The notes beneath the pieces are model-generated. The model was not told the DNA's origin and did no database searches. It saw only the letters and a list, made by a program, of their open reading frames with translations. 64,000 nucleotides of DNA from Sanguibacter suarezii NBRC 16159 (lineage in GTDB: Bacteria; Actinomycetota; Actinomycetes; Actinomycetales; Cellulomonadaceae): positions 1 through 64,000 of the forward strand of contig NZ_BCRT01000022.1 of NCBI RefSeq assembly GCF_001552735.1, written 5' to 3'. This document shows positions 1-16,219 of the stretch, piece after piece. The position numbers and the translations under genes are program-made. Numbering within the stretch: position 1 is the stretch's first letter; every line of letters starts with the position of its first letter.

Positions 1-1
1 C

Positions 2-340
2 CTCCCCGACCGCTACGACTACCCCCGAGGTACCATCGCTCTGCCGCCCGCGGGTGTTGGCATGCTCAGTCTCAACCCGACCCTCATCGACCAAGGGAAA
101 CTCTCCGAGTGGGACGTCGCCCTGAGCATCGCCACTCCCACGGTGTGCCCGGCATACTACGGAGAAGAGCCTCCGCTCAAACTTCTCGACACGCAGCGCG
201 ACGTTGCGACGTGGGTTGTCGATCGCCTCTCCGGAACGGGCGGCTCGGCACCCAACGAGATCGAGGCCGCACAGGCCGCATACGCAGCGCTGCAGGACTG
301 CGATGCGAGCACCATTCCGGCCTGGGGTTATGGCCAATGA
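2..340 (+). CDS. Unknown protein, 5' end outside window
   Basis: The frame is open from the first bases of the window, so the N-terminus is missing; 112 residues are visible. The first internal ATG is at 62, but the open frame upstream argues that this is not the true start. The visible part has no membrane segment and ends in WGYGQ. It contains two cysteines (VCPAYYG and LQDCDA) that could pair if the protein is exported. I do not recognise the family. Its stop overlaps the start of the next gene (ATGA), so the two are probably co-translated. It belongs to the accessory block that ends near 3,255. Confidence 0.5.
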   Translation, partial: LPDRYDYPRGTIALPPAGVGMLSLNPTLIDQGKLSEWDVALSIATPTVCPAYYGEEPPLKLLDTQRDVATWVVDRLSGTGGSAPNEIEAAQAAYAALQDCDASTIPAWGYGQ

Positions 341-891
341 AGCCAGCGCTCAAGGCGCACCGATGGGACACCTGCCTCGCCCTGGCACTGGTGATCGGCG
401 CAGTCGGGTACCTGAACCAGGCCGCATTCGTGCCAGTCCCGTTCCTCCAAGACATGGTTCCGGTCCGTCTCCTCATTGCTATCGTCGCAGTCGTCAGTGC
501 CATCACCCCGCTCTACCCGGCATTCATGAGCCTCGCGCCCTCACTCGTCCGCGAGGCGCGAAATCAACGGCTGCGACCAGTGGGTACCGTCGCGCTCGCC
601 ATGGTCGGCTACGCCCCCTGCGCAGTGGGGGTCAGGGCAGCCGCACCAGACACGCTCTTCTTCCTAGCCCTGCTGGCTGCCGCGCTCGTGTCGGTCGCTC
701 TGGCGGGATACCTCGCGTGGGCAATCGTCCTCGCGCTCGGTTTCACCGCACTGATGGTGGACTCCGCCCCGGGGGCCCCCTTAACGCGCCTGCTTGAGAG
801 CTGTACCGGGCTGGGGCTGGCAGGTGCCACGATGGGCGCGACGATGGTTGTCGCGCACTTCGGGACACGGCAATGGCGAAATCTTGCCTAG
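337..891 (+). CDS. Small multi-pass membrane protein, unknown function
   Basis: 184 residues from an ATG that overlaps the previous stop codon (ATGA at 337-340). The frame stays open upstream to 109, but the coupled start is preferred because the upstream part reads as an antiparallel shadow rich in Arg and His. After a short basic N-terminus (MKPALKAHRW) there are about five hydrophobic segments and few charged residues, consistent with an integral membrane protein. No transporter or enzyme motif is recognised. It ends on a TAG that forms a shared CTAG with the stop of the convergent gene. Together with the preceding ORF it could be a two-gene unit of the mobile block. Function unknown. Confidence 0.5.
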   Translation: MKPALKAHRWDTCLALALVIGAVGYLNQAAFVPVPFLQDMVPVRLLIAIVAVVSAITPLYPAFMSLAPSLVREARNQRLRPVGTVALAMVGYAPCAVGVRAAAPDTLFFLALLAAALVSVALAGYLAWAIVLALGFTALMVDSAPGAPLTRLLESCTGLGLAGATMGATMVVAHFGTRQWRNLA

Positions 892-901
892 CGTTGCAAG
901 A
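882..901. terminator. Small hairpin spanning both convergent stop codons
   Basis: TCTTGC (882-887) pairs with GCAAGA (896-901) around a CTAG (888-891). Each of the two convergent genes uses that CTAG as its stop. The stem is only 6 bp without a U tract, so function as a bidirectional terminator is weakly supported. Confidence 0.3.
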
Positions 902-1433
902 CATCCTGGTAGTAAGGCGTGTCCTGGAGGAACGTCACTGCGACGAGCAGACCCGCCAAGAGGATGCCTGAAGGAACCACGATGCCGCTCAGCATCCGCC
1001 AGCCGCGGTGAGGGATGCGCTGTAGCCCTTGCTCTGCAAGACCGTAGAGCAGGAGCGCGGCTAGCGCGCATGCACTTGCGGCGACGTACTTCGTAGTGTG
1101 TCTGGCCCCGCCATCGGGCACTAAGCCTTGGGCCACCAGCGCCCCCACGACGATCGACAGGAGCGCGAGCACGCTGTATAGCCGAGCCTTCAACCACCGC
1201 CGGGTTGTGTTCCCGAGGCCTTCAAGTGCGTCTAGTTCGCTGTCGAGCATGCGCTCGACCTTCTCTCGACGTGACAGGTCGTTGGTATCGAGCTCGTTGC
1301 GGATCTCGAGAAGCTCCTTAACTGCTCGGCGTCGCCGTACGGTCCCGAAGGCGTATCCAGTGGTGATGACGACGACGGTGGCGCCGATGCAGGCGATGAG
1401 CAGCTCGGTCACGGTATGTCCCTGGGTTGGCAT
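888..1433 (-). CDS. Membrane protein with cytoplasmic coiled segment, unknown function
   Basis: 181 residues starting MPTQGHTVTELL at the ATG at 1433. A longer open frame to 1544 exists, but that extension runs into the palindromic recombination site and looks non-coding. A first hydrophobic segment (about residues 8-28) is followed by a charged, probably helical stretch of about 50 residues rich in Glu, Leu and Arg (VKELLEIRNELD...). Three further hydrophobic segments lie in the C-terminal half. The arrangement is one membrane helix, a cytosolic coiled region, then a membrane bundle. No family was recognised. It is convergent with the preceding membrane protein, sharing a CTAG stop. Confidence 0.5.
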   Translation of the reverse strand: MPTQGHTVTELLIACIGATVVVITTGYAFGTVRRRRAVKELLEIRNELDTNDLSRREKVERMLDSELDALEGLGNTTRRWLKARLYSVLALLSIVVGALVAQGLVPDGGARHTTKYVAASACALAALLLYGLAEQGLQRIPHRGWRMLSGIVVPSGILLAGLLVAVTFLQDTPYYQDVLQR

Positions 1434-1523
1434 GACAGCGGGTGACCGCTCGTGCCGTGATAGTAGAAGCCGCCACTGACGTTGCTCGCTCCCGAGGTCG
1501 ACTGCTGCGGCCCGAGGTGGCCC

Positions 1524-1563
1524 ATGAGACGCCTCGAAACCCATGGGTTGCGAGACGTCTCAT
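1524..1563. other. 40-bp near-perfect palindrome, probable recombinase crossover site
   Basis: The 40 bp are a dyad with only two mismatched base pairs, centred between 1543 and 1544 on the core AACCCATGGGTT. The outer arms read ATGAGACG and CGTCTCAT. The central dinucleotide is AT, which fits the 2-bp staggered cleavage of small serine recombinases. It lies 117 bp before the ATG of the recombinase gene. The half-site GGGTTGCGAGAC (1545-1556) recurs exactly 120 bp downstream at 1665-1676. Assignment as site I of a res-like locus is inference from symmetry and location. Confidence 0.6.
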
Positions 1564-1612
1564 CGATGCCGGCGCCGAGGACATGGAAACGGTGCAGCGC
1601 GGGCGACCCGCG

Positions 1613-1676
1613 TGTCTCGTAGCTATGTCTCGCAAGTGAGCGGTACTTTCAGTGTCATGAACCTGGGTTGCGAGAC
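1613..1676. promoter_or_regulatory. Accessory recombinase half-sites overlapping the gene start
   Basis: TGTCTCG occurs at 1613-1619 and 1626-1632. GTCTCGCAA (1627-1635) is the inverse of TTGCGAGAC (1668-1676), giving a 50-bp dyad. All match arms of the 40-bp palindrome upstream. The last half-site overlaps a possible TTG start (1668) and sits next to the ATG at 1680, so the recombinase probably represses its own gene when bound. The arrangement resembles accessory sites II/III of Tn3-type res loci, which is inference. Confidence 0.5.
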
Positions 1677-1679
1677 ACC

Positions 1680-2273
1680 ATGACGGCCAGCGGGAAACTC
1701 ATCGGGTACGCGCGAGTCTCGACTCGTCATCAGAGCACCGACCGCCAGGTGGTCGACCTCGCCGCCGCCGGCGTACGCCGCGACGACCTCTACGTCGACC
1801 ACGGCGTCAGCGGAGCTCGCGCACGCCGCCCCGAGTTCGACCGAGCCCTCGACGCACTCCATGCCGGCGACACGCTCGTCATCACGACACTCGACCGTCT
1901 CGGGCGCTCTACATCCAACATGCTCACCCTCGCCGAAGACCTCCACGCTCGAGGAGCAGCCCTGCGGGTGCTCAACCTCGGCGGGGCAAGCATGGACACC
2001 TCCACCGCGACCGGCGCCATGATCTTCACCGTCATGGCCGCCCTCGCCCAGATGGAGCTCGAAATCAAGCGCGAACGCGTCAACGACTCCGTCACCAAGC
2101 GCCGCGCCGCCGGCAAAGACCTCGGCGGCCGCCGACCCCAGTACACCGACAGCCAGATCCGCAACGCCCGGCACCTGATCGCCGCGGGTAAGCCAGCCGC
2201 TCAGGTCGCTCGCGACCTCGGCATGTCCCGCGCCACCCTCTACAGGCGCATCAGCACCCTCACGACGGGCTAG
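1680..2273 (+). CDS. Small serine recombinase (resolvase/invertase family)
   Basis: 197 residues, the usual length of Tn3 resolvases and Hin/Gin invertases. The N-terminal catalytic domain begins GYARVSTRHQSTDRQ with the nucleophilic serine in the RVST motif. It continues through the family motifs LVITTLDRLGRS and MIFTVMAALAQMELE, followed by the long E-helix. A C-terminal helix-turn-helix (AAQVARDLGMSRATLYRR, about residues 170-190) would bind the repeats upstream. The ATG at 1680 is chosen. A TTG at 1668 (adding MRDT) is possible but overlaps a half-site, and neither start has a clear ribosome-binding site. It probably resolves or inverts DNA of the accessory block. No transposase is visible in the window. 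Confidence 0.9.
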   Translation: MTASGKLIGYARVSTRHQSTDRQVVDLAAAGVRRDDLYVDHGVSGARARRPEFDRALDALHAGDTLVITTLDRLGRSTSNMLTLAEDLHARGAALRVLNLGGASMDTSTATGAMIFTVMAALAQMELEIKRERVNDSVTKRRAAGKDLGGRRPQYTDSQIRNARHLIAAGKPAAQVARDLGMSRATLYRRISTLTTG

Positions 2274-2443: not shown

Positions 2444-3274
2444 TCAGGTGACGGCGAACTCATTCCACGTGTCCCTGAGTCGCGATAACGCAGCGGCGCG
2501 CATGCGCGCAAGCGTTGGGCGTGTCACGCCCATGGCGCTGGCGATCTCCGCAGGATCCATTTCCTCAAAGAAGTGGAGAGTCAAGACCTGACGATCCCGC
2601 TCGCTTAGTTGCTCCATCGCGGCCCGCAGGAGGTGGAGGCTATCGTCGGGGCCGGCTGCGTCGGCGCTGGTTCGACGTTCCTCGACGATCTCTTCCAGGG
2701 TCGTCTCGGCAACAGCGGCGCCGAGCGCGGTCCGAGCGAGGGCAAGGAAGTCGTTGAAGTTCATCTGTCCGTACCGATGCGCGCTTCGACGACCGAACTC
2801 GTTCACGAGCGCCCGCAGTGGCTCACCGTCCTTGGCGAACCAGTCGTCCTTCTGATCGTTCGTCACCAGCAGGAACGGTGTCGGGGTGCGCGCCGCATGG
2901 TCGAGGAGCTCGGACCACAGCAAATAGTCACCAGCCTGCAGGAGTGGCGTGTACTTGTCCGCGACGTCTCTCCAGCCGGGGGGTATCTGGTTCGGGGCGC
3001 GCCACGTAGCGAAATCCTCTACCCGCTGCCGCACCAAGAGGGGATCCGGATCCTTCGCGGCACCCGCATTCAGGAGGGCGTCGATCCGACGCAGGACCGG
3101 ATCGTCATCCCCGGGCACGATCGCGGCGTCGGCAGCCACGAGTGCGTCAAAGGCGGAGCTGAACCGCTCCAAGGTCTCGTCGAGAAGACCGGACACCTCG
3201 TGGCGTGACTCCTGCCAGCGTCGGCTCGCGCCAAACGCTTCCTTGGCATCACTCGACATCACGATCATCTCCAA
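2444..3274 (-). CDS. Truncated PIN-like protein with C-terminal sigma-region-4-like HTH
   Basis: The frame encodes up to 276 residues. Its middle carries a block typical of the C-terminal half of PIN-like (PIN_8/DUF4935) proteins: GDYLLWSELLDHA followed by PFLLVTNDQKDDWF. The last about 50 residues (LSERDRQVLTLHFF ... ASAMGVTRPTLARM) look like a sigma-70 region 4 or LuxR-type helix-turn-helix. The N-terminal PIN part with the first catalytic aspartate (DTNVLL-type motif) is absent. The only start codons (3274, 3259) lie at or beyond the point where GH51 sequence begins on the other strand (about 3255). The gene is therefore probably 5'-truncated at the island junction and lacks an active nuclease centre. 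The domain reading is by motif, not by search. Confidence 0.55.
   Translation of the reverse strand: MEMIVMSSDAKEAFGASRRWQESRHEVSGLLDETLERFSSAFDALVAADAAIVPGDDDPVLRRIDALLNAGAAKDPDPLLVRQRVEDFATWRAPNQIPPGWRDVADKYTPLLQAGDYLLWSELLDHAARTPTPFLLVTNDQKDDWFAKDGEPLRALVNEFGRRSAHRYGQMNFNDFLALARTALGAAVAETTLEEIVEERRTSADAAGPDDSLHLLRAAMEQLSERDRQVLTLHFFEEMDPAEIASAMGVTRPTLARMRAAALSRLRDTWNEFAVT
3245..3265. other. Island/chromosome breakpoint
   Basis: Recognisable GH51 sequence on the + strand begins at about 3255. The PIN-like frame on the - strand runs out of family-like sequence at about 3259. Both genes lack their 5' parts exactly here, as expected for the end of an inserted or recombined segment. I see no obvious inverted repeat or target duplication at the point itself. 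The other end lies outside the window. Confidence 0.6.
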
Positions 3275-4826
3275 CTCGGGGCAGACCTCCGCGGGCGCCT
3301 GGTTCGACGAGCTGTGGGACTTCGCCCGTGACGAGGACGCCGACCTCGTCGACGAGCACTACTACAACTCGCCCGAATGGTTCTTCGCCAACGCCAACCG
3401 CTACGACTCCTACGACCGCTCCGGACCGCACGTCTTCATCGGGGAGTACGCCTCCAAGGGCAACACCTTCTACAACGCCCTCGCCGAGGCAGCCTTCATG
3501 ACCGGGATCGAGCGCAACGCCGACGTCGTCGACCTCGCGTCCTACGCCCCGCTCCTGGCGAACAAGGACTACGTCCAGTGGGCACCGGACGCGATCTGGT
3601 TCGACAACGCGACCGCCTACGGCTCGGTGAACTACTACGTGCAGACGATGTTCGCCCAGAACGTCGGGGACACGGTGGTGCCCTCCACCGTGACGCAGCC
3701 CGTCACGGCCGGGGAGGACCTGTCCGGCGGGATCTTCCTGTCTACCTGGCTCACCGCGGCCGCCTACGACAACGTACGGGTGACCTCCAACGAGACCGGT
3801 GAGGTGCTCTTCGAAGACGACTTCTCCGACGGCGCAGCCGGCTGGGCACCGACGTCAGGCACCTGGGCGGTCGTGGACGGTGAGTACCGCCAGACGAGCA
3901 CGACCGTGGAGGACGCGCGCAGCACCCCCAGAGTCGACGCCAGCGGCTGGGGCAGCTACACGCTCGAGCTCGACGCCCGCAAGCTGGCAGGCACGGAGGG
4001 GTTCCTCGTCGGCTACGGCGCCCAGGACCCCAGCACCTACACGTGGTGGAACCTCGGCGGGTGGGCCAACACCCGGTCTGCCATCCAGCAGACGGCCTCG
4101 GGTGCGTCGGTCGAGCTCGCTGGCAGTGCGACGACGATCGCCACAGGGCAGCAGCACTCGGTCAAGGTCGTCGTGGCGGGGCGGACCCAGAAGCTCTACC
4201 TGGACGACGTGCTGGTGACCGAGCATGCCGACACGACCGTCCAGCAGGACCTCTACCAGGTCGTCACCCGTGACGACGCGACGGGGGATCTCGTGCTCAA
4301 GGTGGTCAACTCCACGGAGGCGGCGATCACGGCGCCGGTCAGGATCACCGGGGACGTGACGATCGACGCAGAGGCGACCGTCACCGAGATGACCGGGGAC
4401 CGCGCCGCGCAGAACACGATGGCCGCACCCCGCCGGATCGTCCCGGTGGAACGCCAGATCACCGGGATGGGCAGCTCGTTCAGCTACGAGTTCCCGGAGA
4501 GCTCCATCACCTTCCTGCGGTTGGGGACCGACCTGCCGACCGTCGTTCCGCCCGTCGTGGAGGTGCCGACCGACCCGGTGCCGCCCGTCCTGGAACCAGT
4601 ACCGACCGACCCCGTCCCCAGCGACCCGGTGACGGGTGGGGCTCCGGCTGCCCCGTCGCCAGCTCCGGCGCCCTCCGGCGCAGCGGACACCCAGGGGGAC
4701 GCAGGCGCGGGCGGCACGCCGAAGCCGCTCGCGATGACTGGCTCGGAGGTGGCTCTGTTGGCGCTGCTCGCGGCGGCCATGGTGGCTGGCGGCTCGGTCC
4801 TGGTCCGGCTTCGGGCACGGAGCTGA
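3255..4826 (+). pseudogene. 5'-truncated secreted GH51 alpha-L-arabinofuranosidase with LAxTG anchor
   Basis: From 3255 the frame reads DITIISNSGQTSAGAWFDEL and then DEHYYNSPEWF and VFIGEYA, the second half of a secreted GH51 catalytic domain. The nucleophile Glu (GEYA, codon at 3444) is kept, but the N-terminal half with the GNE acid/base is gone. A concanavalin-like interdomain follows (about 3,810-4,240), then the GH51 C-terminal beta domain and a Pro/Thr/Val-rich linker. The C-terminal sorting signal is LAMTG, a hydrophobic helix and a basic tail (RLRARS). LAxTG fits class E sortases. The frame is open upstream to 2949 only by chance, across the island. The remaining 523 residues have no start or signal peptide, so this is a remnant. 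Confidence 0.8.
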
Positions 4827-4856
4827 CGGCCCTCGGCCGGGACGGCTGACGGACGG

Positions 4857-4901
4857 CGATGAGCCGGCGGAGCGGGATCACCCCGCGCCGCCGGCTCGTC
4901 G
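4857..4901. terminator. Bidirectional hairpin between GH51 remnant and trkA
   Basis: A 14-bp stem (4857-4870 with 4888-4901, one G-U pair) encloses an inner GCGGG/CCCGC stem. It stands between two convergent genes, so it can end both transcripts. No U tract, as is common in GC-rich actinobacteria. Confidence 0.6.
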
Positions 4902-4918
4902 CTGTGCGTGATGGCCGG

Positions 4919-5620
4919 CTACGGCCTCGCCGCGAAGCGTTCCAGCAGGTCCGAGTGCCCGGAGACGACCAGCAGGTCGTTGGAGGAGATGCGGGTGTCC
5001 GGCTCGGCGTAGACGAACTCCTGCCCGGGGGACTTCACCCCGATGATGGTCACGCCGTAGCGCTCGCGGACCTTCGACTGGGCGACAGTGAAGCCCTGGG
5101 TCTCCTTCGGCGGACGCATCTTGACGATGGTGAAGCCGTCCTCGACCTCGATGTAGTCGAGCAGCTTCCCGGAGACCAGGTGCGCGACCCGGTTCCCGGC
5201 GTCGGCCTCGGGGAAGACGACGTGGTGAGCGCCGATCCGCTGCAGGATGCGCCCGTGCTCGGCCGAGATCGCCTTGGCCCAGATCTGCGGGGTGCCCAGG
5301 TCCACGAGGTTGCCGGTGATGAGCACGCTCGCCTCGAGAGAGGTGCCCACCCCCACGACCGCGACGGTGAAGTCCCGCGCGCCGAGCTGGTCGAGGGCCT
5401 CGGGGTTGGAGGCGTCCGCCTCCACGATGGGCAGCCGGTCGGAGAAGTGCGCGACCAGGGACGGTGACCGCTCGACGGCGAGCACGTCCTGGCCCAGCCG
5501 GTCCAGGGTCATCGCCATCGCCGAGCCGAACCGGCCCAGCCCGATGACCAGGACGCCGGCGTCGGCCTTGGCGGTCGCCTTCGCGCTCCGGGCGATGCGT
5601 GCCGCTGTGTTGTCAACCAA
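4919..5620 (-). CDS. trkA: Potassium uptake regulatory subunit TrkA/KtrA
   Basis: 233 residues. The RCK_N domain carries the nucleotide-binding GLGRFGSAMA turn about 20 residues from the start. A C-terminal RCK_C (TrkA_C) domain has MRPPKETQGFTVAQSKVRERYGV and DLLVVSGHSDLL. It is the cytosolic ATP/ADP- or NAD-binding gating ring of the TrkH-type channel encoded just upstream. The start is taken as TTG at 5620 because AGGAAAGG lies 8 nt before it and the TTG overlaps the trkH stop (ATTGGTTGA). The next in-frame ATG upstream (5686) would overlap trkH by 74 bp. Translational coupling with trkH is therefore likely. Confidence 0.9.
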   Translation of the reverse strand: MVDNTAARIARSAKATAKADAGVLVIGLGRFGSAMAMTLDRLGQDVLAVERSPSLVAHFSDRLPIVEADASNPEALDQLGARDFTVAVVGVGTSLEASVLITGNLVDLGTPQIWAKAISAEHGRILQRIGAHHVVFPEADAGNRVAHLVSGKLLDYIEVEDGFTIVKMRPPKETQGFTVAQSKVRERYGVTIIGVKSPGQEFVYAEPDTRISSNDLLVVSGHSDLLERFAARP

Positions 5621-6989
5621 TGATGGGCCTTTCCTCAGGCAGCCGGATGACCCGACGGCGGTCGCGCAGCGCGAGGGCTGCTGCAAGTGTCATCGTGCCT
5701 GTGCGGCCGATGAACATCAATGCGATGAGCACGTACTTGCCTGCCTCGGGCAGGTCCGAGGTGATGCCGGTGCTCAGACCCACCGTCGCGAAGGCCGAGA
5801 TGACCTCGAAGAGGACGACGTCCAGGGTCCACCCGGTGATCTCCAGCAGCAGCAGACAGGCCACGAGCACCGCGGTGGCACCGACGAAGACGACGGCCAC
5901 GGCCAGCCGCAGCGTGTCACGCGGGATCCGACGCCCGAACACCTCGACGTCCCGGTCACCGCGGGCCTCGGCGATGATCGCGATCATCATGACCGCGAGC
6001 GTCGTGACCTTGATACCGCCGGCGGTCGAGGCAGACCCACCACCGACGAACATGAGCGCGTCGGTGATCAGCCACGACGCCTCGCGCATCTCGCCGACGT
6101 CGATGGTCGAGAACCCGGCGGACCGCGGCATGACGCCCATGAACAAGCCGTTGAGAAGTTTCTCGCCGGTGGGCATCGCTCCGAGGGTCGCCGCGTTCAT
6201 CCACTCCAGCGCGATGAAGAGGGTCGAGCCGACGACGACGAGCAGGCTCGAGGTGACGACGGTGAGCTTGGCGTGCAGGCTCCACTTGCTGAACTTCTTG
6301 CGGTTGCGGGCCACGTTGAGGATGACCGGGAAGCCGAGCGCGCCGATGAAGGCCCCGACGATGATCGGCAGGAGCAGCAACCAGTCACCGGCGTGCGGGG
6401 CGAGCCCCTCGGCGGTGGGGATGAAACCGGCGTTGTTGAAGACCGAGATCGCGTAGAAGACCCCGTGCCAGACCGCTTCGCCGGTGCTCTCGTTGAGGAC
6501 CAGGAACCGGGGGATGAGCAGGGCCGCGATCGCCACCTCGAGGCTGGTGGAGGCGATGATGACCACCCGCACGAGCGAGCCGACCTCACCGAGGCGGGTC
6601 GTCTTCGTCTCCGAGGCGGTGAGCAGCTTCTGGGTGAGGCCGATGCGCCGGGAGACCGCCATGCCCAGCAGCGAGGCCAGGGTCATGACGCCGAGGCCAC
6701 CGATCTTGATCGCCACGAGGATCACGGCTTGACCGAAGGTGGACCAGTAGGTCCCGGTGGGCACGGTGACCAGACCGGTCACGCACACGGCCGAGGTGGC
6801 GGTGAAGAAGGCATCGACGAAGGGCGCGCGGGTGCCGTCAGCGGTGGCCAACGGGGTTGACAGCAGGCCGGTGAAGACGGCGATGACGGCTGCGAACACG
6901 CTGATGGCCAGGCGTGCCGGCGACTGCCGGGCCATGCGGTCGATCAGCTCGCGGCCCATCCACAGGCGCCCAGAGAGACCCGATGCCAT
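5613..6989 (-). CDS. trkH: Potassium uptake transmembrane subunit TrkH/KtrB
   Basis: 458 residues, the short KtrB-like length. The four pore-loop repeats of the superfamily of K transporters are visible: TSAVCVTGL, VFNNAGF, SASTAGGIKV and SAFATVGLS, each with the selectivity-filter glycine. About eight membrane helices plus pore loops are expected. It conducts K+ inward at the plasma membrane together with TrkA, whose gene overlaps the 3' end. The ATG at 6989 follows an AGGAGAG-type site (CTTGAGGAGAGCGG on the - strand). Divergent from the LacI gene at 7109. Confidence 0.93.
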   Translation of the reverse strand: MASGLSGRLWMGRELIDRMARQSPARLAISVFAAVIAVFTGLLSTPLATADGTRAPFVDAFFTATSAVCVTGLVTVPTGTYWSTFGQAVILVAIKIGGLGVMTLASLLGMAVSRRIGLTQKLLTASETKTTRLGEVGSLVRVVIIASTSLEVAIAALLIPRFLVLNESTGEAVWHGVFYAISVFNNAGFIPTAEGLAPHAGDWLLLLPIIVGAFIGALGFPVILNVARNRKKFSKWSLHAKLTVVTSSLLVVVGSTLFIALEWMNAATLGAMPTGEKLLNGLFMGVMPRSAGFSTIDVGEMREASWLITDALMFVGGGSASTAGGIKVTTLAVMMIAIIAEARGDRDVEVFGRRIPRDTLRLAVAVVFVGATAVLVACLLLLEITGWTLDVVLFEVISAFATVGLSTGITSDLPEAGKYVLIALMFIGRTGTMTLAAALALRDRRRVIRLPEERPIIG

Positions 6990-7108
6990 CCGCTCTCCTC
7001 AAGTCACTCAACCTGTACATCCGAACTCTGCCACGAGTTGCGGGTGAGATACACCGTGGCGGGGGCAAAACGGGCACCTGAGGGCGCTGTTCCCGCTACT
7101 GTCTGAAG

Positions 7109-8128
7109 GTGCCCACGCCCCAGGTTGTCAAGGTTCCCGTCATCGCGGACGTCGCGCGCCTGGCAGGCGTGTCCGTCCCGACCGTCTCGCGCGTGCTCAC
7201 GGGCTCGACCCCGGTGAGCGACGAGAAGCGCGAACGGATCATGGCGGCGATCCGGGAGCTCGGCTACCGACCCAACGCCGCGGCCCGCGCGCTGGTGAGC
7301 GGCCGGCAGTCGATGATCGCGGTCGTCGCCGGCAACACCACCCGCTACGGCTACGCCATGACCATCCAGGGCATCGAAGAGGCCGCCCGGGCCGCGGGGT
7401 ACCTCGTGGTCATCACCGTCGTGGACACCCCTGACGAGACGACCGTCGCCACGACGGTCGACCTGGTGCTCGGCCAGCCGGTCGCCGGGATCGTCGTGCT
7501 CGCCTTCGACGAGGCGGGCATCCTCGCCAAGGGCGCCTTCCCGGCCACGGTGCCGATGGTCTCCGCCGTCGCGGTGGGGGACTCCGCGGCGCGCGAGCCG
7601 CAGGCTTTCCTCGACGACCGTGTGGCCGCCAAGGAGGCGACCGACTACCTGCTGGGCCTGGGGCACGCGACCGTGCACCACGTCTCCGTGCCGCAGGCCG
7701 TGCCCCGCATGGGCCGGACCCTGGGCTGGGAGGACGCGCTGCGCGCGGCCGGCCTGGAGGTCCCCGAGATCATCGCGGCTGACTGGGAGCCGTCCTCCGG
7801 CCGGCAGGTCGGACTGCAGCTCGCTGACCGGCCGGACGTGACCGCGGTGATCTGCGGGAACGACGAGGTGGCGATCGGCGTGATCCGCGGCCTCCACGAG
7901 GCAGGCAAGCGCGTGCCCGACGACGTGAGCGTCGTCGGCTTCGACGACTCCCCGCTCGCAGCGGTCGCCATCCCGGCGCTGACGACCGTGGCCCAGGACT
8001 TCATCGACCTCGGGCACCGGGCGTTCTCCCAGCTCAGCCTCCTGATCACGACGGGCGAGGCGCCGATGTCCTCCTCGTCCGCTCCCCGCCTCGTCGTCCG
8101 CGAGAGCACCGCCGCCCCCCGCGCCTGA
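7109..8128 (+). CDS. LacI-family repressor, probable regulator of the alpha-galactoside operon
   Basis: 339 residues from a GTG start. The N-terminal helix-turn-helix IADVARLAGVSVPTVSRVL and hinge helix RPNAAARALVSG are typical of LacI/GalR repressors. The rest is a periplasmic-binding-like sugar domain ending with VVGFDDSPLAAVAIPALTTV. It precedes, in the same direction, the alpha-galactosidase gene whose promoter carries two LacI-type palindromes. The likely effector is therefore galactose, melibiose or a raffinose-type sugar; this is inferred from context only. Confidence 0.88.
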   Translation: MPTPQVVKVPVIADVARLAGVSVPTVSRVLTGSTPVSDEKRERIMAAIRELGYRPNAAARALVSGRQSMIAVVAGNTTRYGYAMTIQGIEEAARAAGYLVVITVVDTPDETTVATTVDLVLGQPVAGIVVLAFDEAGILAKGAFPATVPMVSAVAVGDSAAREPQAFLDDRVAAKEATDYLLGLGHATVHHVSVPQAVPRMGRTLGWEDALRAAGLEVPEIIAADWEPSSGRQVGLQLADRPDVTAVICGNDEVAIGVIRGLHEAGKRVPDDVSVVGFDDSPLAAVAIPALTTVAQDFIDLGHRAFSQLSLLITTGEAPMSSSSAPRLVVRESTAAPRA

Positions 8129-8240
8129 CCCTCACCCTGTACTCGGTCCGACGCACCCCGGCCGTCCAGCAACGGCCGTCGAGTCACGGCCCCGTCCTCC
8201 AGACCCCTGCCGGCGGCCCCATCACCGGCAGCGTGACCCC

Positions 8241-8380
8241 TTCGCCGACCTCGTGACCCCCTCGCCGACCTCGTGACCCCTCGCCGAGCTCGTGAGCCAG
8301 GGGCGTTCACTCTGCCCTGGCTCACGAGTTCGGGCGCGGGCTCACGAGCTGGCGCGCGGGCTCACGAGTTCGCGGGGCGC
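8241..8380. repeat. Two oppositely oriented 20-bp tandem repeat arrays flanking a hairpin
   Basis: Left array: TTCGCCGACCTCGTGACCCC (8241-8260), the same with C first (8261-8280), and a decayed third copy from 8281. Right array: three 20-bp units starting CTCACGAG at 8321, 8341 and 8361. CTCGTGA/TCACGAG is the shared inverted core. Between them CTCGTGAGCCAGGG (8289-8302) pairs perfectly with 8315-8328 (14-bp stem, 12-nt loop). It could be a bidirectional terminator, a REP-like element or a multi-site protein target. Confidence 0.75.
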
Positions 8381-8455
8381 GGGAGGAGGTCGCGAGGGTG
8401 GCTCGCGGGGCGGGGGCGGGCGACCGCGGCGGGCGCCTCTCGGCAACCCGTGGCG

Positions 8456-8469
8456 TGAAAGCGTTATCA
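8456..8469. promoter_or_regulatory. LacI-type operator 1 (alpha-galactosidase promoter)
   Basis: TGAAAGCGTTATCA is a dyad around a central CG, matching the TGAAAACGTTTTCA-like consensus of LacI-family operators. It lies about 30 bp upstream of the likely -35. Confidence 0.55.
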
Positions 8470-8500
8470 AGACGTGACACCGGGGTCTTGCAATCTGATC

Positions 8501-8515
8501 TGATCAACGTTTTCA
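8501..8515. promoter_or_regulatory. LacI-type operator 2 within the promoter spacer
   Basis: TGATCAACGTTTTCA is a dyad centred on the CG of AACGTT. It lies between a candidate -35 TTGCAA (8488-8493) and -10 CATAAG (8514-8519), so a bound repressor would block polymerase. The 20-bp spacer is long, making the exact promoter call uncertain. Confidence 0.55.
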
Positions 8516-8560
8516 TAAGACCAGAGCACGACTTCACTCATCGTCGAGGAACGGATTGTC

Positions 8561-10765
8561 ATGCGGCACCGAAGCCACATCATCAGCTGGGACGCACCCC
8601 GGCTGCACATCGAGCTGTCGGCGGGCGACGACGCCCCCGTGGGCATCGAGACGCTGCGCCCCGTCGCAGACGGCGCGCCGGAGGCCTTCGGCGCGACGAT
8701 CGACCGTGCCACGCTGGCGCACCTCATCAACCCCTCGACCTCGGCCCAGCGGCTCGTCGAGGTGATCGCCTCCGGCCACGGTCGCGCCTGGTCCTCGACG
8801 CGCTACTCGGGCACCATGATCGGCGAACGCCTCCGCTACGTCGCGCACAGCCAGCGCACCGAGCCCGCCCGCGGCGCGGGGGAGTGGTCCGTCCTGGAGA
8901 TCGAGCAGGCAGACCCGGTCAGCGGGCTGCGCGTGGTCACCACGCTGCGCTCGCACGAGTCGGTGGCGGGCCTGCAGGCCTGGAGCACCGTGACGAACGA
9001 GAGCGAGACGGTGCTGCGCCTGCGCGCGGTGACCAGCCTCGCCGTCGGGTCCTTCCCGTCGACCGAGCTCACGGACGTCGACGTGCTCTGGGCACCGACC
9101 GACTGGCTCGGCGAGAGCCGCTGGGTCACCGAGGCGCTGCGCGACCAGGCGGTCATCGACCTGTCCCGCGCCGACCACGAGCACGACCCGCGCGGTGCCT
9201 TCCGGGTGACCGGGATCGGCGCATGGTCGACCGGGCAGGCGCTGCCCACCGGCATCCTGCGCGACCGCGTCACCGGGGTCACCTGGGGGTGGCAGGTCGA
9301 GCACAACGGACCCTGGCACTGGCAGGTCGGCGAGCGCGCGGACGGTCTGTACCTCGCACTGACCGGCCCCACCGACGACGAGCACCAGTGGACCAGCGAC
9401 CTCGCGCCCGGCGAGTCCTTCACCTCGGTGACGGCATCGATGGTCGTCTCCCGCGACGGCGCCGAGGGGGCCTTCGCCGAGCTCACCCGCCAGCGCCGGG
9501 CGATCCGCCGTCCCCACCACGACGTCGACACGCTGCCGGTGGTCTTCAACGACTACATGAACACCCTCATGGGCGACCCCACCACCGAGAAGCTGCTGCC
9601 GCTCATCGAGGCAGCCGGCGCGGTCGGCGCGGACTACTTCTGCATCGATGCCGGTTGGTACGCGGACGACAGCGACTGGTGGGACGGCGTCGGGGAGTGG
9701 CAGCCGTCCACCACCCGCTTCCCCGGCGGCCTGGCCGCAGTCATCGACCACATCCGGGCCAACGGCATGGAGCCGGGTCTGTGGCTCGAGCCCGAGCTCA
9801 TCGGTGTGCGCAGCCCGCTCGCGCAGTCCTATCCCGACGAGGCGTTCATGCAGCGCGCCGGTGACCGGATCTCCGAGCACCAGCGCCACCACCTGGACTT
9901 CTCCAGCCAGGCCGTGCGCGACTACATGGACTCGCGGGTCGACGCCCTCGTCTCCGAGCTCGGCATCCGCTACTTCAAGCTCGACTACAACGTCGTCCCC
10001 GGTCCGGGCACCGACGGCGCCGCCGACGGTGCGAGCGCGCCGTCGGCCCCGGGCGAGGGGCTGCTGCGGCACAACCGTGCCTACCTGGGCTGGCTGCGCT
10101 CCGTCCTCGACCGCCACCCGGACCTCATCCTGGAGAACTGCGCCTCCGGTGCCATGCGGATGGACTACGCGATGCTCTCCGAGCTGCAGCTGCAGTCCAC
10201 CTCCGACCAGCAGGACCTGCTGCGCTACCCGCCCATCGCGGCTGCGGCTCCCGCGGCGATCCTGCCTGAGCAGGCCGCCAACTGGGCCTACCCGCAGCCG
10301 GGCATGACGGCGGAGGAGATGACCTTCACCCTCGCCACGGGAGTGCTCGGACGGATGTACCTCACCGGCCACCTCAACCGCATGGACGACGCCGAGCGGG
10401 CCCTCGTGGCCAGCGCCGTCGCCGCCCACCAGGGCATCCGCCACGACCTGGCGCGGGCCTTCCCGTCCTGGCCGATCGGCCTGCCGTCCTGGGACGACCC
10501 CGCCCTCGCCCTCGCCCTCGTCGCCGACGACGTGACATACGTCACGCTCTGGCGGCGCCCGGGTGCCGCCGACGTCGTCGACCTCCCGCTCGCCGGCCTC
10601 GCCGGTGCCCAGGTCGACATCTGCCCGGTCTTCCCGGCGGACCTGGGGTCCTGGCAGGTCAGCTGGGACGCCGTCACCGGCACGCTGCGCACCAGCGTCC
10701 CCGCTGGCGCCGACGAGCAGGCCTCCGCCCGGGTGCTCAAGGTGACCCGCCGCTCCGCTCCCTGA
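8561..10765 (+). CDS. Alpha-galactosidase, GH36, cytosolic
   Basis: 734 residues with no signal peptide, the usual length of bacterial GH36 enzymes. After the N-terminal beta-sandwich the TIM barrel shows YFCIDAGWYADD, MEPGLWLEPELIG, FKLDYN and LENCASGAMRMD. The nucleophile is expected at Asp475 (KLDYN) and the acid/base at Asp549 (STSDQQD). It would release galactose from melibiose or raffinose-family sugars inside the cell after import by the ABC system encoded next. The start has GAGGAA upstream. GH36 also contains related specificities such as beta-L-arabinopyranosidase-like and N-acetylgalactosaminidase activities, so the exact substrate is inferred. Confidence 0.92.
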   Translation: MRHRSHIISWDAPRLHIELSAGDDAPVGIETLRPVADGAPEAFGATIDRATLAHLINPSTSAQRLVEVIASGHGRAWSSTRYSGTMIGERLRYVAHSQRTEPARGAGEWSVLEIEQADPVSGLRVVTTLRSHESVAGLQAWSTVTNESETVLRLRAVTSLAVGSFPSTELTDVDVLWAPTDWLGESRWVTEALRDQAVIDLSRADHEHDPRGAFRVTGIGAWSTGQALPTGILRDRVTGVTWGWQVEHNGPWHWQVGERADGLYLALTGPTDDEHQWTSDLAPGESFTSVTASMVVSRDGAEGAFAELTRQRRAIRRPHHDVDTLPVVFNDYMNTLMGDPTTEKLLPLIEAAGAVGADYFCIDAGWYADDSDWWDGVGEWQPSTTRFPGGLAAVIDHIRANGMEPGLWLEPELIGVRSPLAQSYPDEAFMQRAGDRISEHQRHHLDFSSQAVRDYMDSRVDALVSELGIRYFKLDYNVVPGPGTDGAADGASAPSAPGEGLLRHNRAYLGWLRSVLDRHPDLILENCASGAMRMDYAMLSELQLQSTSDQQDLLRYPPIAAAAPAAILPEQAANWAYPQPGMTAEEMTFTLATGVLGRMYLTGHLNRMDDAERALVASAVAAHQGIRHDLARAFPSWPIGLPSWDDPALALALVADDVTYVTLWRRPGAADVVDLPLAGLAGAQVDICPVFPADLGSWQVSWDAVTGTLRTSVPAGADEQASARVLKVTRRSAP

Positions 10766-10843
10766 CCTCTGTCCGTCCACCCCCGTTACCGCGCATCACC
10801 CCACGCAGTCGATGATGACTTGCAGAAATGAAAGGACCCTTCG

Positions 10844-12157
10844 ATGAAGAAGTTCGCAGCCACCACCGCGATCGTCACAGCGCTCGGCCTCACCCTGGCG
10901 GGCTGCGGCGACCCCAGCGGCGCCGACGCCGGGGCCAGCGCCCCGGCCGAGTGGGCCGACCAGAACGCCGACCTCTCCGGGGTCGAGCTGACGTTCTGGG
11001 CCGCCCAGTCCAGCGTGAGCGTCCCTGAAGAGGTCGCTGCGGCCTTCGAGGAGGCGACCGGCGCGGAGGTGACCATCGAGGTCATCCCGGACTCCTACGA
11101 GGCCAACGTCCAGACCCGCGTGGCGACCGGCGCGAAGCCGGACCTGGCGTTCTGGCAGCCGACGCCGTCGATGCTCACCGCGATCAACGCCAAGAACAAC
11201 CTCCTTCCGCTCGACGGCGCACCCTGGGTCGAGACCATGGAGCCGAGCCTGCAGGACCTCACCGGCATCCTCGACGGCACGCGCTACGCGACCTTGGTGG
11301 CCAGCCCGTCCGTCATCGGCGTCTATTACAACAAGGACGTCTTCGCGGCGAACGGCATCAGCGAGGTCCCGCAGAACGTCGACGAGCTGCTCACCGACGC
11401 CCGCGCCATCGAGGCCGCCGGGACCGACGCCTTCTTCGAGATGGCCGGCGACGGTTGGGGCACGCAGTGGTTCCCGCAGATGCTCCTGGCCGACGACGCC
11501 AAGGCCGGCTTCTGGGACGAGGTGAACGCCGGGACCAAGACCTTCTCCTCCCCGGAGATGCTCGACGCGATCACCGAGTACGACGACCTCATCACCGAAG
11601 GCCTGTTCAACGACGACATCAAGACCGCGACCTTCAACGACCAGGGCGCTGCGCTGCTGGCCGGCGAGGCCGCGATGGTCGTCCAGAACAACGCCTACAT
11701 GACCCAGCTCCAGGCGATGGCCACGACCGACGAGCTCGACGCGAGCATCGGGTTCTTCCCGATCTCCCGCGAGGGCACCACCGCGACGTCCATCCCGGAC
11801 CAGTCCAACGCGATCGTCGCCTTCAACACCGGGGACGCCGAGCGTCAGGCCGCGGCGCGCCAGTTCATGTCCTTCTGGATGGGTGAGGGCTACCCCACCT
11901 TCGTCGAGTCGACCAACGCGGTCTCGATCGTGACCGGCGTCGAGAACTCTCCTGAGGTTCCCCAGCTCGTGCTGGACATCCACGCCACGCTGACGGACAC
12001 CGCGCCGTCCATGCAGGCCGCCGCGGTCGCCAACCCGGACCTCTGGCTCAACCTCGTGGACATGATCAACGACGTCAAGACCCCTGAGGACGTCGCCAAG
12101 GCCACCCAGTCCCAGTTCGCCGAGCTGGCCAAGGCCGCCGGGGTCGCCGGGTTCTGA
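10844..12157 (+). CDS. Sugar ABC transporter substrate-binding lipoprotein
   Basis: 437 residues. The signal peptide MKKFAATTAIVTALGLTLAGC ends in a lipobox (LAGC), so the mature protein is tethered to the membrane surface. The fold is family 1 solute-binding (MalE-like), with ELTFWAAQSS at the mature start and PSVIGVYYNKDVF in the middle. AAGTDAFFEMAGDGWG lies in the ligand-cleft region. GAAAGGACC precedes the ATG. It follows the alpha-galactosidase by 78 bp and precedes two permease genes, so the ligand is probably an alpha-galactoside. Confidence 0.9.
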   Translation: MKKFAATTAIVTALGLTLAGCGDPSGADAGASAPAEWADQNADLSGVELTFWAAQSSVSVPEEVAAAFEEATGAEVTIEVIPDSYEANVQTRVATGAKPDLAFWQPTPSMLTAINAKNNLLPLDGAPWVETMEPSLQDLTGILDGTRYATLVASPSVIGVYYNKDVFAANGISEVPQNVDELLTDARAIEAAGTDAFFEMAGDGWGTQWFPQMLLADDAKAGFWDEVNAGTKTFSSPEMLDAITEYDDLITEGLFNDDIKTATFNDQGAALLAGEAAMVVQNNAYMTQLQAMATTDELDASIGFFPISREGTTATSIPDQSNAIVAFNTGDAERQAAARQFMSFWMGEGYPTFVESTNAVSIVTGVENSPEVPQLVLDIHATLTDTAPSMQAAAVANPDLWLNLVDMINDVKTPEDVAKATQSQFAELAKAAGVAGF

Positions 12158-12306
12158 CCCGGTTCCCCACCCCTCTTCGGGCGGGGCCGGCGCACAGACG
12201 GCTCCGCTCGAACCCTCGAGGTCCTGACCGCCCCGCAGGCACGTCCCCCCGCGCACGCCGCGGGGTGGTCAGGACCCGCCCAGCTACCCGAGAGAGAGGC
12301 GCGATC

Positions 12307-13230
12307 GTGGCGACCAGCTACGCGCCAGCCCCAGCCAAGGTGAAGAGACGACCCGAGATGGTCACCGAGCGCAAGATCCACCCCTGGTGGTTCCTCGCGC
12401 CCGCGTTCGCTGTCCTGATCGTCTTCTTCCTCGTCCCCACGGTCTACAACTTCGTCTACGCCTTCACCGACTGGTCGAGCTTCAAGTCCCAGATCAACGT
12501 CATCGGCACCGACAACTTCTCCTCGCTGCTGGAGAACGGCACGCTGCTGAAGTCGCTGCGGATCACCCTGGCCTACGCCGTCATGGTGGCGATCTTCCAG
12601 AACCTCTTCGGGCTGCTGCTCGCGCTGTTCCTGGAGAAGGACTCCACGGTCAACCGCGCCGCCCGCGTCGTGTTCTTCATCCCCGTGGTGATGAGCGCGC
12701 TGGCCGTCGGCTACATCTTCCAGGCGCTGCTCAAGCCGGAGGGGGCGCTCAACCAGATCCTGTCCTTCGTCACCGGCCAGGACGTGACCATCGCCTGGCT
12801 CGGCTCGACCACCTGGACCCTGGTCATCGTCGCGATGATCCACGCCTGGAAGTGGATGGGGCTGTCCATGCTCGTCTACCTGGCCGGCCTGAAGACCATC
12901 AGCGACGACGTCATGGAGGCCGCCCGCCTCGATGGCGCGAGCTCCTGGCAGATGTTCTGGAAGGTCCGCTTCCCACTGATCGGCCCGGCCATCACCTTCA
13001 ACGTCGCCACCGCGCTGCTGGGGTCCATGAACGGCTTCGACATCGTCCAGGCGACGACCGGCGGCGGGCCTGCCCGCAGCACCGAGATCTTCAACATCTT
13101 CGTCTTCCGGACCTTCGGCCAGGGGTTGTACGCGCAGGCCACGACCATGAGCCTGCTGCTCTTCGTGGTCGTCGCGGTCCTTGCCTTCCCTGTCATCGGA
13201 ATGCTGCGTCGTCGGGAGGAAGTCCTGTGA
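12307..13230 (+). CDS. Sugar ABC transporter permease (MalF/UgpA type)
   Basis: 307 residues from the GTG at 12307, preceded by GAGAGAGAGG. The open frame continues to 12265 but that extension lacks a site and is Arg-rich. Six membrane segments are seen. The cytoplasmic coupling loop is EAARLDGASSWQMFWKVRFPLIGP, matching the EAAxxxG signature of permeases that contact a MalK-type ATPase. It overlaps the next permease gene by 4 bp (GTGA). Role: import of the sugar captured by the upstream binding lipoprotein. Confidence 0.9.
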   Translation: MATSYAPAPAKVKRRPEMVTERKIHPWWFLAPAFAVLIVFFLVPTVYNFVYAFTDWSSFKSQINVIGTDNFSSLLENGTLLKSLRITLAYAVMVAIFQNLFGLLLALFLEKDSTVNRAARVVFFIPVVMSALAVGYIFQALLKPEGALNQILSFVTGQDVTIAWLGSTTWTLVIVAMIHAWKWMGLSMLVYLAGLKTISDDVMEAARLDGASSWQMFWKVRFPLIGPAITFNVATALLGSMNGFDIVQATTGGGPARSTEIFNIFVFRTFGQGLYAQATTMSLLLFVVVAVLAFPVIGMLRRREEVL

Positions 13231-14162
13231 GCACCCAGACTGTCAGCGCCGGTTCGGCGCACCCCGAGCCCCAGGCCCGCTCGGGCCAGCAGCCCCCGGC
13301 CACCAGGCCGCGCCGCCCGCGTCCCACCCCCAAGGGTGGACGGCAGGGCCCCTGGGCAAAGATCCAGCCCGCCGCCGTCGTGATCGTCACGATCCTGACG
13401 ATGGGCGTGCCGTTGTGGCTCGTCGTGGTCACGGCCGGCAAGAGCCAGGCGGAGGCGGTCGTCCCCACCATGGCGCTGCCCACGCAGTGGCGGCTGTGGG
13501 AGAACTTCTCCGAGATCTGGACGAGGGGTGACATCCCGGCCGGCTTCGTCGGATCCCTGCTCATCATGGTCCCCGCGGTCCTGGCGACCCTGCTGCTCGG
13601 GGCCATGGCCTCGTGGATCCTGGCGCGGCGCTCCGGACGGCTCAACTCGCTCATGTACGCCGCCGCCATCTCCGGGCTGATCCTGCCGCCCGCGGTGGTC
13701 ACCGTGGTGCTGCTGCTGCGCCAGCTCGGCATCGCGGGCACCGCGATCGGCATGATCTGCGTGTACATGGGGATCTACCTGTCCACGGTGATCTTCTTCG
13801 TCACCGGCTTCGTCCGCAACATCCCCCTCGAGCTCGAGGAGGCCGCCCGGATGGACGGTGCAGGGCCGGTCAAGATCTTCGCCCGGATCATCCTGCCGCT
13901 GCTCGTCCCGGTGCTGTCGACGGCGACCATCCTCATCTGCCTGTACGTCTGGAACGACGTCTTCTACGCCTTCTTCGTGCTGGGCGGGCAGATGGATACC
14001 CTGCCGTTGAACCTCTTCACGGTGGCCAGCGCAGGGCTGTACCTCAACAACTGGCACCTGATCTTCGCCTACGTCGTGCTCATGAGCCTGCCGCTGCTCG
14101 TGGTGTTCATGGTCTTCCAGCGCAAGATCATCTCCGGCGTGACCAGCGGCGCGGTCAAGTAG
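13227..14162 (+). CDS. Sugar ABC transporter permease (MalG/UgpE type)
   Basis: 311 residues from a GTG overlapping the previous stop, with GGGAGGAAG upstream. About 45 N-terminal residues are a Pro/Arg/Gln-rich cytosolic tail, longer than usual. Six membrane helices follow, with the coupling loop EEAARMDGAGPVKIFARIILPLLVP. It completes the binding protein plus two-permease importer. No ATPase gene follows, so a shared MsiK-like ATPase encoded elsewhere is expected (known for actinobacteria, inferred here). The operon ends at the hairpin at 14197. Confidence 0.9.
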   Translation: MSTQTVSAGSAHPEPQARSGQQPPATRPRRPRPTPKGGRQGPWAKIQPAAVVIVTILTMGVPLWLVVVTAGKSQAEAVVPTMALPTQWRLWENFSEIWTRGDIPAGFVGSLLIMVPAVLATLLLGAMASWILARRSGRLNSLMYAAAISGLILPPAVVTVVLLLRQLGIAGTAIGMICVYMGIYLSTVIFFVTGFVRNIPLELEEAARMDGAGPVKIFARIILPLLVPVLSTATILICLYVWNDVFYAFFVLGGQMDTLPLNLFTVASAGLYLNNWHLIFAYVVLMSLPLLVVFMVFQRKIISGVTSGAVK

Positions 14163-14196
14163 CGCGGCTGATCCTGGCTGGCGATGCCTGCTGAGA

Positions 14197-14230
14197 GCCC
14201 ACCGGCGCGCGATCCCGCGCGCCGGTGGGC
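14197..14230 (+). terminator. Terminator of the alpha-galactoside operon
   Basis: A perfect 14-bp GC stem (14197-14210 with 14217-14230) and a 6-nt loop GATCCC, 35 bp after the permease stop and before the next start at 14250. Confidence 0.75.
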
Positions 14231-14249
14231 TTCGCGCTACCGTGAACCC

Positions 14250-15437: not shown

Positions 15438-15542
15438 CCGTTCACCGCTTCTCACCGGACCGGCCCAGGCCCTAGGGTGGTGCACAGTGCTCCACGAGCT
15501 CAGCGGCCCCGCCGGCGAGCTCCACGACAAGAAGGTTCCGAC

Positions 15543-15749
15543 ATGACGTCGCAGGCCCCGCGCGTGCAGTTCCTCACCGTCTCCGAGGTGGCCGAGGTCA
15601 TGCGCGTCTCGAAGATGACGGTGTACCGGCTCGTGCACTCCGGGGAGCTGCCCGCGGTGCGGGTGGGCAAGTCGTTCCGGGTGCCCCAGGACGCGCTCAC
15701 CAGCTACCTCGCGGCGGCCTACATCGAGGGTGATCGGATCTCGTCCTGA
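15543..15749 (+). CDS. Excisionase/MerR-like helix-turn-helix protein
   Basis: 68 residues. The core FLTVSEVAEVMRVSKMTVYRLVHSGELPAVRVGKSFRV is an excisionase-type winged HTH (HTH_17), related in form to BldC. From memory it matches the small protein encoded next to the bS22 gene in many actinobacteria (Rv0500A in M. tuberculosis), and the same neighbour is present here. AAGAAGG lies upstream of the ATG. It is probably a DNA-binding regulator; its targets are unknown. It is not evidence for a phage, because the conserved neighbourhood explains it. Confidence 0.85.
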   Translation: MTSQAPRVQFLTVSEVAEVMRVSKMTVYRLVHSGELPAVRVGKSFRVPQDALTSYLAAAYIEGDRISS

Positions 15750-15915
15750 GTGCCGCGTCGCAGAGACCTCTCAGGAGACGATAGGATAGGTTCGGACTTT
15801 CCCGAGCGTGGGCGTCACATGTACCACTTGCAGTCTTGCGGTCTACCGGCCGCTTGGTTCTGAGCGGTTCTACGGCGTGCTGCGCGAGCAGACCCGATCA
15901 ACATTGCGAGGACCC

Positions 15916-16014
15916 ATGGGCTCCGTCATCAAGAAGCGCCGCAAGCGTATGGCTAAGAAGAAGCACCGCAAGCTGCTTCGTAAGACCCGCCACCAGCGTC
16001 GTAACAAGAAGTAA
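15916..16014 (+). CDS. bS22-like ribosomal protein (AURKAIP1/COX24 domain), 32 aa
   Basis: A tiny gene, MGSVIKKRRKRMAKKKHRKL then LRKTRHQRRNKK, with 21 Lys/Arg in 32 residues. From memory this matches the 33-residue mycobacterial protein (Rv0500B) found in ribosome structures near the decoding centre and named bS22. Its position directly after the excisionase-like gene is conserved. The GAGGAC just before the ATG serves as ribosome-binding site. A good terminator follows at 16028. Easily missed by gene finders because of its length. Confidence 0.88.
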   Translation: MGSVIKKRRKRMAKKKHRKLLRKTRHQRRNKK

Positions 16015-16027
16015 AGCAGTTCCCGAC

Positions 16028-16051
16028 CGGGCCCGGTTTCGACCGGGCCTG
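16028..16051 (+). terminator. Terminator after bS22 gene
   Basis: GGCCCGGT (16030-16037) pairs with ACCGGGCC (16042-16049) around a TTCG tetraloop, extended by two further pairs including one G-U. It is 14 bp after the stop. Confidence 0.75.
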
Positions 16052-16219
16052 AGTCGTATCCGGAATCAGGTGGGCCCACGTTCCCACCAAGCTCGGGTGG
16101 ACCCAGCCTCGACGCGCACGGTCGCGCGCGGGTGCTGGGCCTGGGCGGGTGTGAAGGATAATCTCAGGTGACTCTCAGCGATGAGGTGTCATCATCATGA
16201 CCCAGTCGGAGGCCTCCCC

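Follow-up and report, generated by a model that had tools for sequence, protein, structure and literature searches.

The res site of Tn3 consists of a 28-bp site I, a 34-bp site II with inverted arms and a 25-bp site III by the gene. Its resolvase acts on supercoiled DNA with two res copies in direct repeat, and the Tn3 transposon has a linked tnpA and inverted repeats of 38 bp. Two systems based on tyrosine recombinases are also relevant here, integrons with their integrase IntI and attC sites that take part as folded single strands, and the pdif modules, where the host enzymes XerC and XerD act at the module-bounding sites. Resolvases are further said to shuffle flanking modules at res in Tn3-family transposons and Acinetobacter plasmids, an idea attributed to Kholodii (2001). 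One report describes direct-repeat half-sites in the accessory site of the Sin resolvase from staphylococcal plasmids (PMC9943657), and another describes the XerCD-dependent pdif modules of Acinetobacter plasmids as gene modules bounded by crossover sites (PMC9501444).

The window analysed here, a stretch of 64,000 nucleotides, comes from a Sanguibacter genome of 3.8 Mb (G000), where it opens contig C22, with position 1 at the contig end. At 1680–2273 (+) it encodes a small serine recombinase of 197 aa with Resolvase and HTH_7 domains (Pfam, 4e-38 and 1.5e-8, respectively), the same make-up as in the Tn3/gamma-delta resolvases (approx. 190 aa); the closest solved structures were those of a Gin-type DNA invertase (best match) and of gamma-delta/Tn3 resolvase. 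A crossover palindrome of 40 bp, the putative res site I, lies ahead of the gene at 1524–1563 (no strand assigned), with a 28-bp core at 1530–1557 and the central AT at 1543/1544. With 18 of 20 pairs it is unique in the window at the level of at least 18/20 pairs, and no palindrome of this quality was produced in 60 simulated windows (3.84 Mb) drawn from a dinucleotide model. The sequence-only reading had described a 40-bp dyad with two mismatched pairs and a central AT, placed 117 bp before the recombinase ATG, and both statements are borne out by the pairing and by the coordinates (1563 versus 1680). Its half-site repeat at the gene start, 120 bp away, was likewise found (TGGGTTGCGAGAC at 1544 and 1664), together with the half-site GTCTCGCAA at 1627, between the palindrome and the recombinase gene; an extra half-site, TGTCTCGTA from 1613, had been missed.

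As in Tn3/gamma-delta, the 28-bp palindromic crossover site is far from the gene, with accessory sites near the start codon and a possible site of 25 bp adjoining the gene (1652–1676, no strand assigned, GTGTC...GAGAC ends). The middle accessory element is, however, different: it consists of two direct half-sites 13 bp apart (TGTCTCGTA and TGTCTCGCAAG, 1613–1636, +), and the inverted right arm of a site II was not evident by eye. In this respect the element is Sin-like rather than Tn3-like, although the window differs from Sin in having an additional, inverted half-site close to the start codon. Taken by itself, the array is best read as the resolvase-type res site of the adjoining recombinase and, as such, as a feature of known kind. 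Self-repression by the recombinase, also proposed in the sequence-only reading, is plausible, because the half-site at the start codon ends 3 bp before the ATG.

A search of the six neighbouring ORFs with Pfam revealed no transposase families, apart from the recombinase's own weak match to HTH_Tnp_1, which is a further difference from Tn3/gamma-delta. The gene beside the recombinase (2447–3274, −) encodes an unusual-looking protein with a PIN-like domain joined to sigma-70 region 4. The island boundary on this side splits an alpha-L-arabinofuranosidase gene, the 3′ part of which starts at 3255 (window 3255–4826) and the 5′ part of which is located on another contig (G000:C25:11557–13008). The island end at 3255 was considered as a boundary of the element and rejected; because no site-I sequence was seen there, we took it to be another event.

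To see how the array varies, we fetched the loci of 80 relatives of the recombinase and read the upstream DNA of all 80. Most of them conserve the right half of the palindrome (GGGTTGCGAGACGTCTC), the spacer and the accessory half-sites, and vary in the left half. Spacing was measured in 62 copies, of which three were Sanguibacter sites and 59 came from the 80 loci (in four of these the centre was corrected manually); 19 loci without a motif-recognisable site I, as well as L066 and L096, were left out of this count. With up to 4 of 14 mismatches allowed, the first accessory element was matched in 61 of the 62 copies and not found in one. Its first half-site was located 59–61 bp (27 copies), 70–72 bp (16), 82–83 bp (7), 92–94 bp (10) or 101 bp (1) from the centre of the palindrome, and the two accessory elements were 49 bp apart in 55 copies, 48 bp in 5 and 36 bp in 1. 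Apart from the lone exception at 101 bp, the distances thus fall into classes of approx. 60, 71, 82 and 93 bp, with steps of about 11 bp, or approximately one helical turn, which is what a resolvase synaptic complex would demand; such a division of the site I distance into four classes is another point in which the family differs from Tn3/gamma-delta.

The flanks of the sites were compared pair by pair for 61 loci, the centre being poorly placed in six, and for five sites from Sanguibacter (66 sequences in total). Among 121 pairs syntenic at the site, 109 had the right side alone in common, four the left alone and eight both. In 106 of the 109 right-only pairs, similarity set in at a position from −25 to +4 bp relative to the centre (in the other three, at +25 or beyond), and in the four left-only pairs it ended at +12 to +20. 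At its res, Kocuria marina SO9-6 matches two different res sites of strain KCTC 9943, one on the left side (97%, 5.8 kb) and the other on the right (99.5%, 5.3 kb); L106 was compared as the reciprocal product and rejected. One-sided junctions at the centre were also found in the pairs L260/L261, L124/L171 and L073/L163. All these junctions point to the centre of site I as a natural recombination point, and the crossover site with accessory sites, as initially proposed for the window, is well supported by the conserved half-sites, the 60/71/82/93-bp classes and the homology breaks at the centre. As a separate observation, L073 contains at 4140–4239, ahead of a solitary site, an inverted-looking copy of the res spacer (by eye), which suggests an inverted insertion or an inversion.

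In the Sanguibacter genome, the core CGCAACCCATGGGTTGCG occurs with at most one mismatch in three places (C22, C24 and C26) and with two mismatches in a fourth (C21); the reversed control pattern gave no match there. The copies on C22 and C24 precede a recombinase gene and that on C21 a recombinase remnant, and the copy on C26 is solitary. A genome-wide occurrence of the palindrome without linkage to recombinases, the outcome named in the sequence-only reading as speaking against it, is therefore not the case, as three of the four copies precede a recombinase gene or remnant. Across 220 other genomes of the family, a one-mismatch match of the core was found in G206 alone, and the remaining matches had two mismatches. 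The G206 match, in a one-contig genome of the same genus, is a solitary site with one core mismatch (L131, 10610–10640), and this recombinase was not detected in that genome at E≤1e-60.

The C24 and C21 copies and Sanguibacter suaedae (G207) have the right side in common with the window, and no match of the left flank. On C26, in turn, the left flank of the window (1–1543, no strand assigned) is repeated up to site I with 97.6% identity over 1554 bp, the divergence starting 12 bp past the centre, and is followed by a 3.66-kb insert, beyond which the match to the right side of the window resumes (85% over 152 bp) with the right half-site, the accessory sites and a truncated start of the recombinase gene. 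The second site on C26 appears damaged, probably by a short deletion at the centre of what was a complete site. None of the 220 other family genomes contained the entire insert. Inside it, a 78-bp stretch (L019, 6547–6625) is 86–87% conserved in several genomes of the family; as a candidate tRNA or known RNA it was rejected after ARAGORN found no tRNA and Rfam no match. Next to the sites on C26 and C24 (L019, 530–6100; L020, 13360–17200), small secreted-looking proteins are encoded beside ABC transporter and FtsX-like genes; they have no Pfam or NCBIfam match, and their genes are reminiscent of lactococcin 972-type bacteriocin operons.

Beyond the res sites themselves, a scan of the 80 loci in which both half-sites were scored detected 11 solitary sites outside res at 10 loci, all of them to the left (346 kb) and none to the right (414 kb); the control, 2.48 Mb of dinucleotide-model DNA, contained one. 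A separate scan of these loci with a matrix (R2, see below) also gave 11 on the left and none on the right, ten of those 11 being training loci of the matrix. The interval between the solitary site and res is often filled by one or two genes, and in other cases it is longer, with three or more. Such intervals encode a CoA-transferase (1561 bp), a 912-aa Mrr/STAND protein (2936 bp), a GCS2 ligase (1361 bp), a TetR-like protein (by eye) together with RibD_C (1434 bp), and proteins without Pfam match (898 and 693 bp). Ten solitary sites, picked for showing a third half-site, gave a gap-free alignment of 52 columns, in which the palindrome is followed by a direct half-site 16 bp further; the third half-site is absent from both L052 sites, the L060 site and the C26 site of Sanguibacter.

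A cassette in two contexts was found in Brevibacterium, where positions 2622–4677 of L101 (Brevibacterium sp. MAG 84_S71) match 9916–7871 of L259 (G507) from site to site with 89.6% identity over 2056 bp. At the first end, 37 bases are identical from the central AT onward and the sequences differ before the centre; at the second, similarity extends up to the CCC before the centre and divergence follows. There is no similarity between the flanks, either in 2.6 kb on the left or in 3 kb on the right. The cassette adjoins res and the recombinase in L101, and no recombinase of the window family was found within 18 kb around it in L259. By this comparison, the junctions of cassette exchange lie at the centre of the palindrome, with half-sites apparently exchanged.

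A model built on the ten sites was positive in 18 of 396 genomes of the order at E≤1e-4; the window genome was not among them, and the three-half-site model gave no match there at this threshold. On one contig of Pseudarthrobacter sp. PS3-L1 (G378), ten sites are spread over 35 kb before res and the recombinase, eight of them in the orientation of the recombinase, and a second contig has four, all in its orientation, in a row ending in res and recombinase. The nine proteins tested from the longer row comprise two GNATs, a glyoxalase, a NUDIX protein, a methyltransferase, alpha/beta and HAD hydrolases, LysR and AAA_13. The model R2, made from 21 sites (13 from G378, with some of the other eight possibly lying within the 395 genomes scanned), detected sites in 70 of 395 Micrococcaceae genomes, and the recombinase was present in 102 of the same draw at E≤1e-60. 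Both occurred together in 34 genomes (Fisher one-sided p 4.5e-6, kinship ignored). The 36 site-bearing genomes without recombinase at E≤1e-60 perhaps have rows minus the enzyme, or rows served by other recombinases. Shuffled DNA (270 kb) gave no match of score 14, and among ten further loci seven had a recombinase, with a res-like palindrome ahead of it in five of the seven.

For the analysis of position we used 140 site positions and 37 recombinase rows (from genomes that also had a listed site) among the matches listed, entering places found on both strands once, on the better strand, and leaving out G822, G673 and G870, where the recombinases listed are on other contigs than the sites. Among these matches, 44 sites had a recombinase on their contig at a distance of up to 45 kb; four were res itself, and all of the 40 others were upstream of the recombinase, 32 in its orientation and eight in the opposite one. 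After removal of G378, still among the matches listed, all 26 sites were upstream, with 20 in the same and six in the opposite orientation.

We consider it likely that the window array is the res of the recombinase encoded at 1680–2273 and that the site of its family is also the platform end of a cassette system in Micrococcales. Site I would be held at a fixed helical phase from the accessory half-sites reaching to the start codon, and the recombinase would cut at the central dinucleotide and exchange half-sites at site I. Small circles or modules with one or few genes and one site-I-like site would recombine at such sites, with entry either beside res or at a cassette site already present, and cassettes would therefore stack upstream, away from the recombinase. 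Comparison of sequences supplies the res architecture, the crossover points at the centre, the site-bounded cassettes, the polarity of the rows and the cassette in two contexts; from these we infer that a recombinase of the window type would be the catalyst of the cassette reaction, with circles as its presumed intermediates and res itself as a probable point of insertion. Several observations count against this reading: 36 of the 70 site-bearing genomes lack the recombinase at E≤1e-60, eight of the 40 upstream sites among the matches listed are inverted, the Sanguibacter genome yielded no three-half-site match, its insert has a damaged-looking second site with a truncated recombinase copy and is absent as a whole from the 220 other family genomes, and six of ten plasmid stretches have a res alone. 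A further one is that the centres of cassette sites are mostly AT (74 of 95 entries, with some places counted on both strands and some res sites with a third half-site included) and those of res sites are mixed (n=55: AT 19, TA 15, TT 10, AA 8, AG 2 and TC 1). Serine recombinases are thought to need matching central dinucleotides. The Sanguibacter copy may work, or may have worked, as a cassette platform; the genome has one probable cassette (the C26 insert) and no row, and since it rests on this one insert, the cassette role at this locus is less sure than for the rows in Micrococcaceae.

Like integrons, the rows are made up of small cassettes that mostly share one orientation and lie to one side of the recombinase and a platform site, a likeness confined to the relatives; the kinds of genes in the cassettes are similar as well. 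The rows differ in the recombinase, a serine enzyme of resolvase type instead of the tyrosine integrase IntI, in the sites, which are palindromes of half-sites, and in the genes, which run in either direction within the cassettes. The system would work like an integron without being one, the integron integrase having reached the cut-off in none of 12 genomes. With pdif it shares modules of genes that are delimited by the crossover sites of a resolution-type recombinase; there, however, the enzymes are the host XerC/D, and here the row ends in a serine recombinase gene. The exchange of flanking modules by a resolvase at res, as ascribed to Kholodii, is common to our loci, and the relatives of the window recombinase differ from that account in having dedicated solitary sites and rows of multiple cassettes; cassette-type sites in the relatives are also a difference from Tn3/gamma-delta. 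The wider system appears to be a cassette-gathering resolvase variant not described in the literature searched, where cassette rows with serine recombinases matched no title or abstract (preprints and most subscription journals were outside the scope of the search). The sequence-only reading is, on the whole, partly supported: its crossover and accessory sites stand, and the cassette system was beyond its view.

We give even chances to the broader proposal of a separate kind of integron, with a serine recombinase, a phased res platform and circular cassettes with three-half-site sites. Its rows would have arisen in many Micrococcales without tyrosine integrases, and the window would hold its Sanguibacter platform. 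If so, integron-type capture of cassettes evolved twice, the second time with a recombinase of an unrelated class and in actinobacteria, where, to our knowledge, integrons are uncommon. The system would offer res spacings that differ naturally by one turn, of use in modelling the synaptic complex, as well as three-half-site cassette sites and rows of unstudied genes. Even in a narrow reading, site I of a resolvase would be a natural hot spot of recombination, with junctions at the central dinucleotide.

Another possible explanation, which we regard as unlikely, is a plain system of multimer or cointegrate resolution on actinobacterial plasmids and islands, the flank differences being the result of occasional recombination between res sites of different replicons. 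Relatives of the recombinase at 60–80% identity are found on at least 30 plasmid records, and six of ten plasmid stretches have a res site alone, as plain multimer resolution predicts; among the other stretches, pMSF1 has two sites and pYA7-1a three, and L157 and L160 have a single palindrome that is not a res. The phased spacing fits plain resolution as well, and shuffling at res is a known idea, ascribed to Kholodii (2001). An exchange between two res sites, however, leaves accessory sites on both products, and no accessory element was found beside the 11 solitary sites; nor does plain resolution predict the third half-site, rows of up to ten sites or a cassette extending from site to site.

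Considerably less probable is a DNA inversion system, in which the palindromic AT centre would let the enzyme flip segments between inverted sites. It would agree with the invertase being the best solved structural match, with the eight inverted sites among the 40 cassette sites in the matches listed, and with Kocuria marina, where the two KCTC 9943 res sites in question face in opposite directions on one contig and either an inversion or an exchange between them would fit the difference between the strains. Against this, of 34 pairs of neighbouring sites no more than 12 kb apart among the matches listed, 27 have both sites in the same orientation (18 of 22 without G378), and 70 of the 80 loci have no second site within the stretch examined.

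We attach very little weight to transposition of the res-hunting Tn402/Tn5053 type into res, with the solitary sites as left remnants. In two Kocuria loci (L064 and L089) site I is absent and the res spacer adjoins other sequence within 190 bp before the recombinase; the junction in the spacer resembles what is presumably a Tn402/Tn5053-type end, and these are perhaps res-hunting transposons in Actinobacteria. The res belonging to one of the 11 solitary sites (L085) is also split in the spacer by an insert (by eye). The cassette junctions, however, are at the centre of the palindrome with half-sites exchanged, and not in the spacer, and res spacer sequence follows the solitary site in L085 alone of the 11 (by eye).

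Ordinary integron cassettes (IntI, attC), or REP-like intergenic repeats merely resembling the site, are hardly credible as an explanation, for although GNAT, glyoxalase, NUDIX and methyltransferase genes, as in the PS3-L1 row, are like those of integron cassettes, and the sites are mostly intergenic (a coding-like ORF encloses 9 of 95 strong site entries, compared with 1245 of 1900 positions chosen at random), the integron integrase (TIGR02249) was over the cut-off in none of 12 genomes, G000 and G378 included (sub-threshold matches: 12 of 12 genomes and 13 of 14 controls), the half-site is the same as in the res of the serine recombinase, and sites near a recombinase were only upstream among the matches listed.

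In the Arthrobacter alpinus plasmid L160, a region dense in genes was considered as a further row of res cassettes and rejected, having one site-like palindrome and repeats of another type. At 3100–18200 it shows a row of small single genes near TniB, with a repeat like GTTGCCCGGTAAGC..CTTGCGGGC at the gene ends, which is possibly a further type of cassette.
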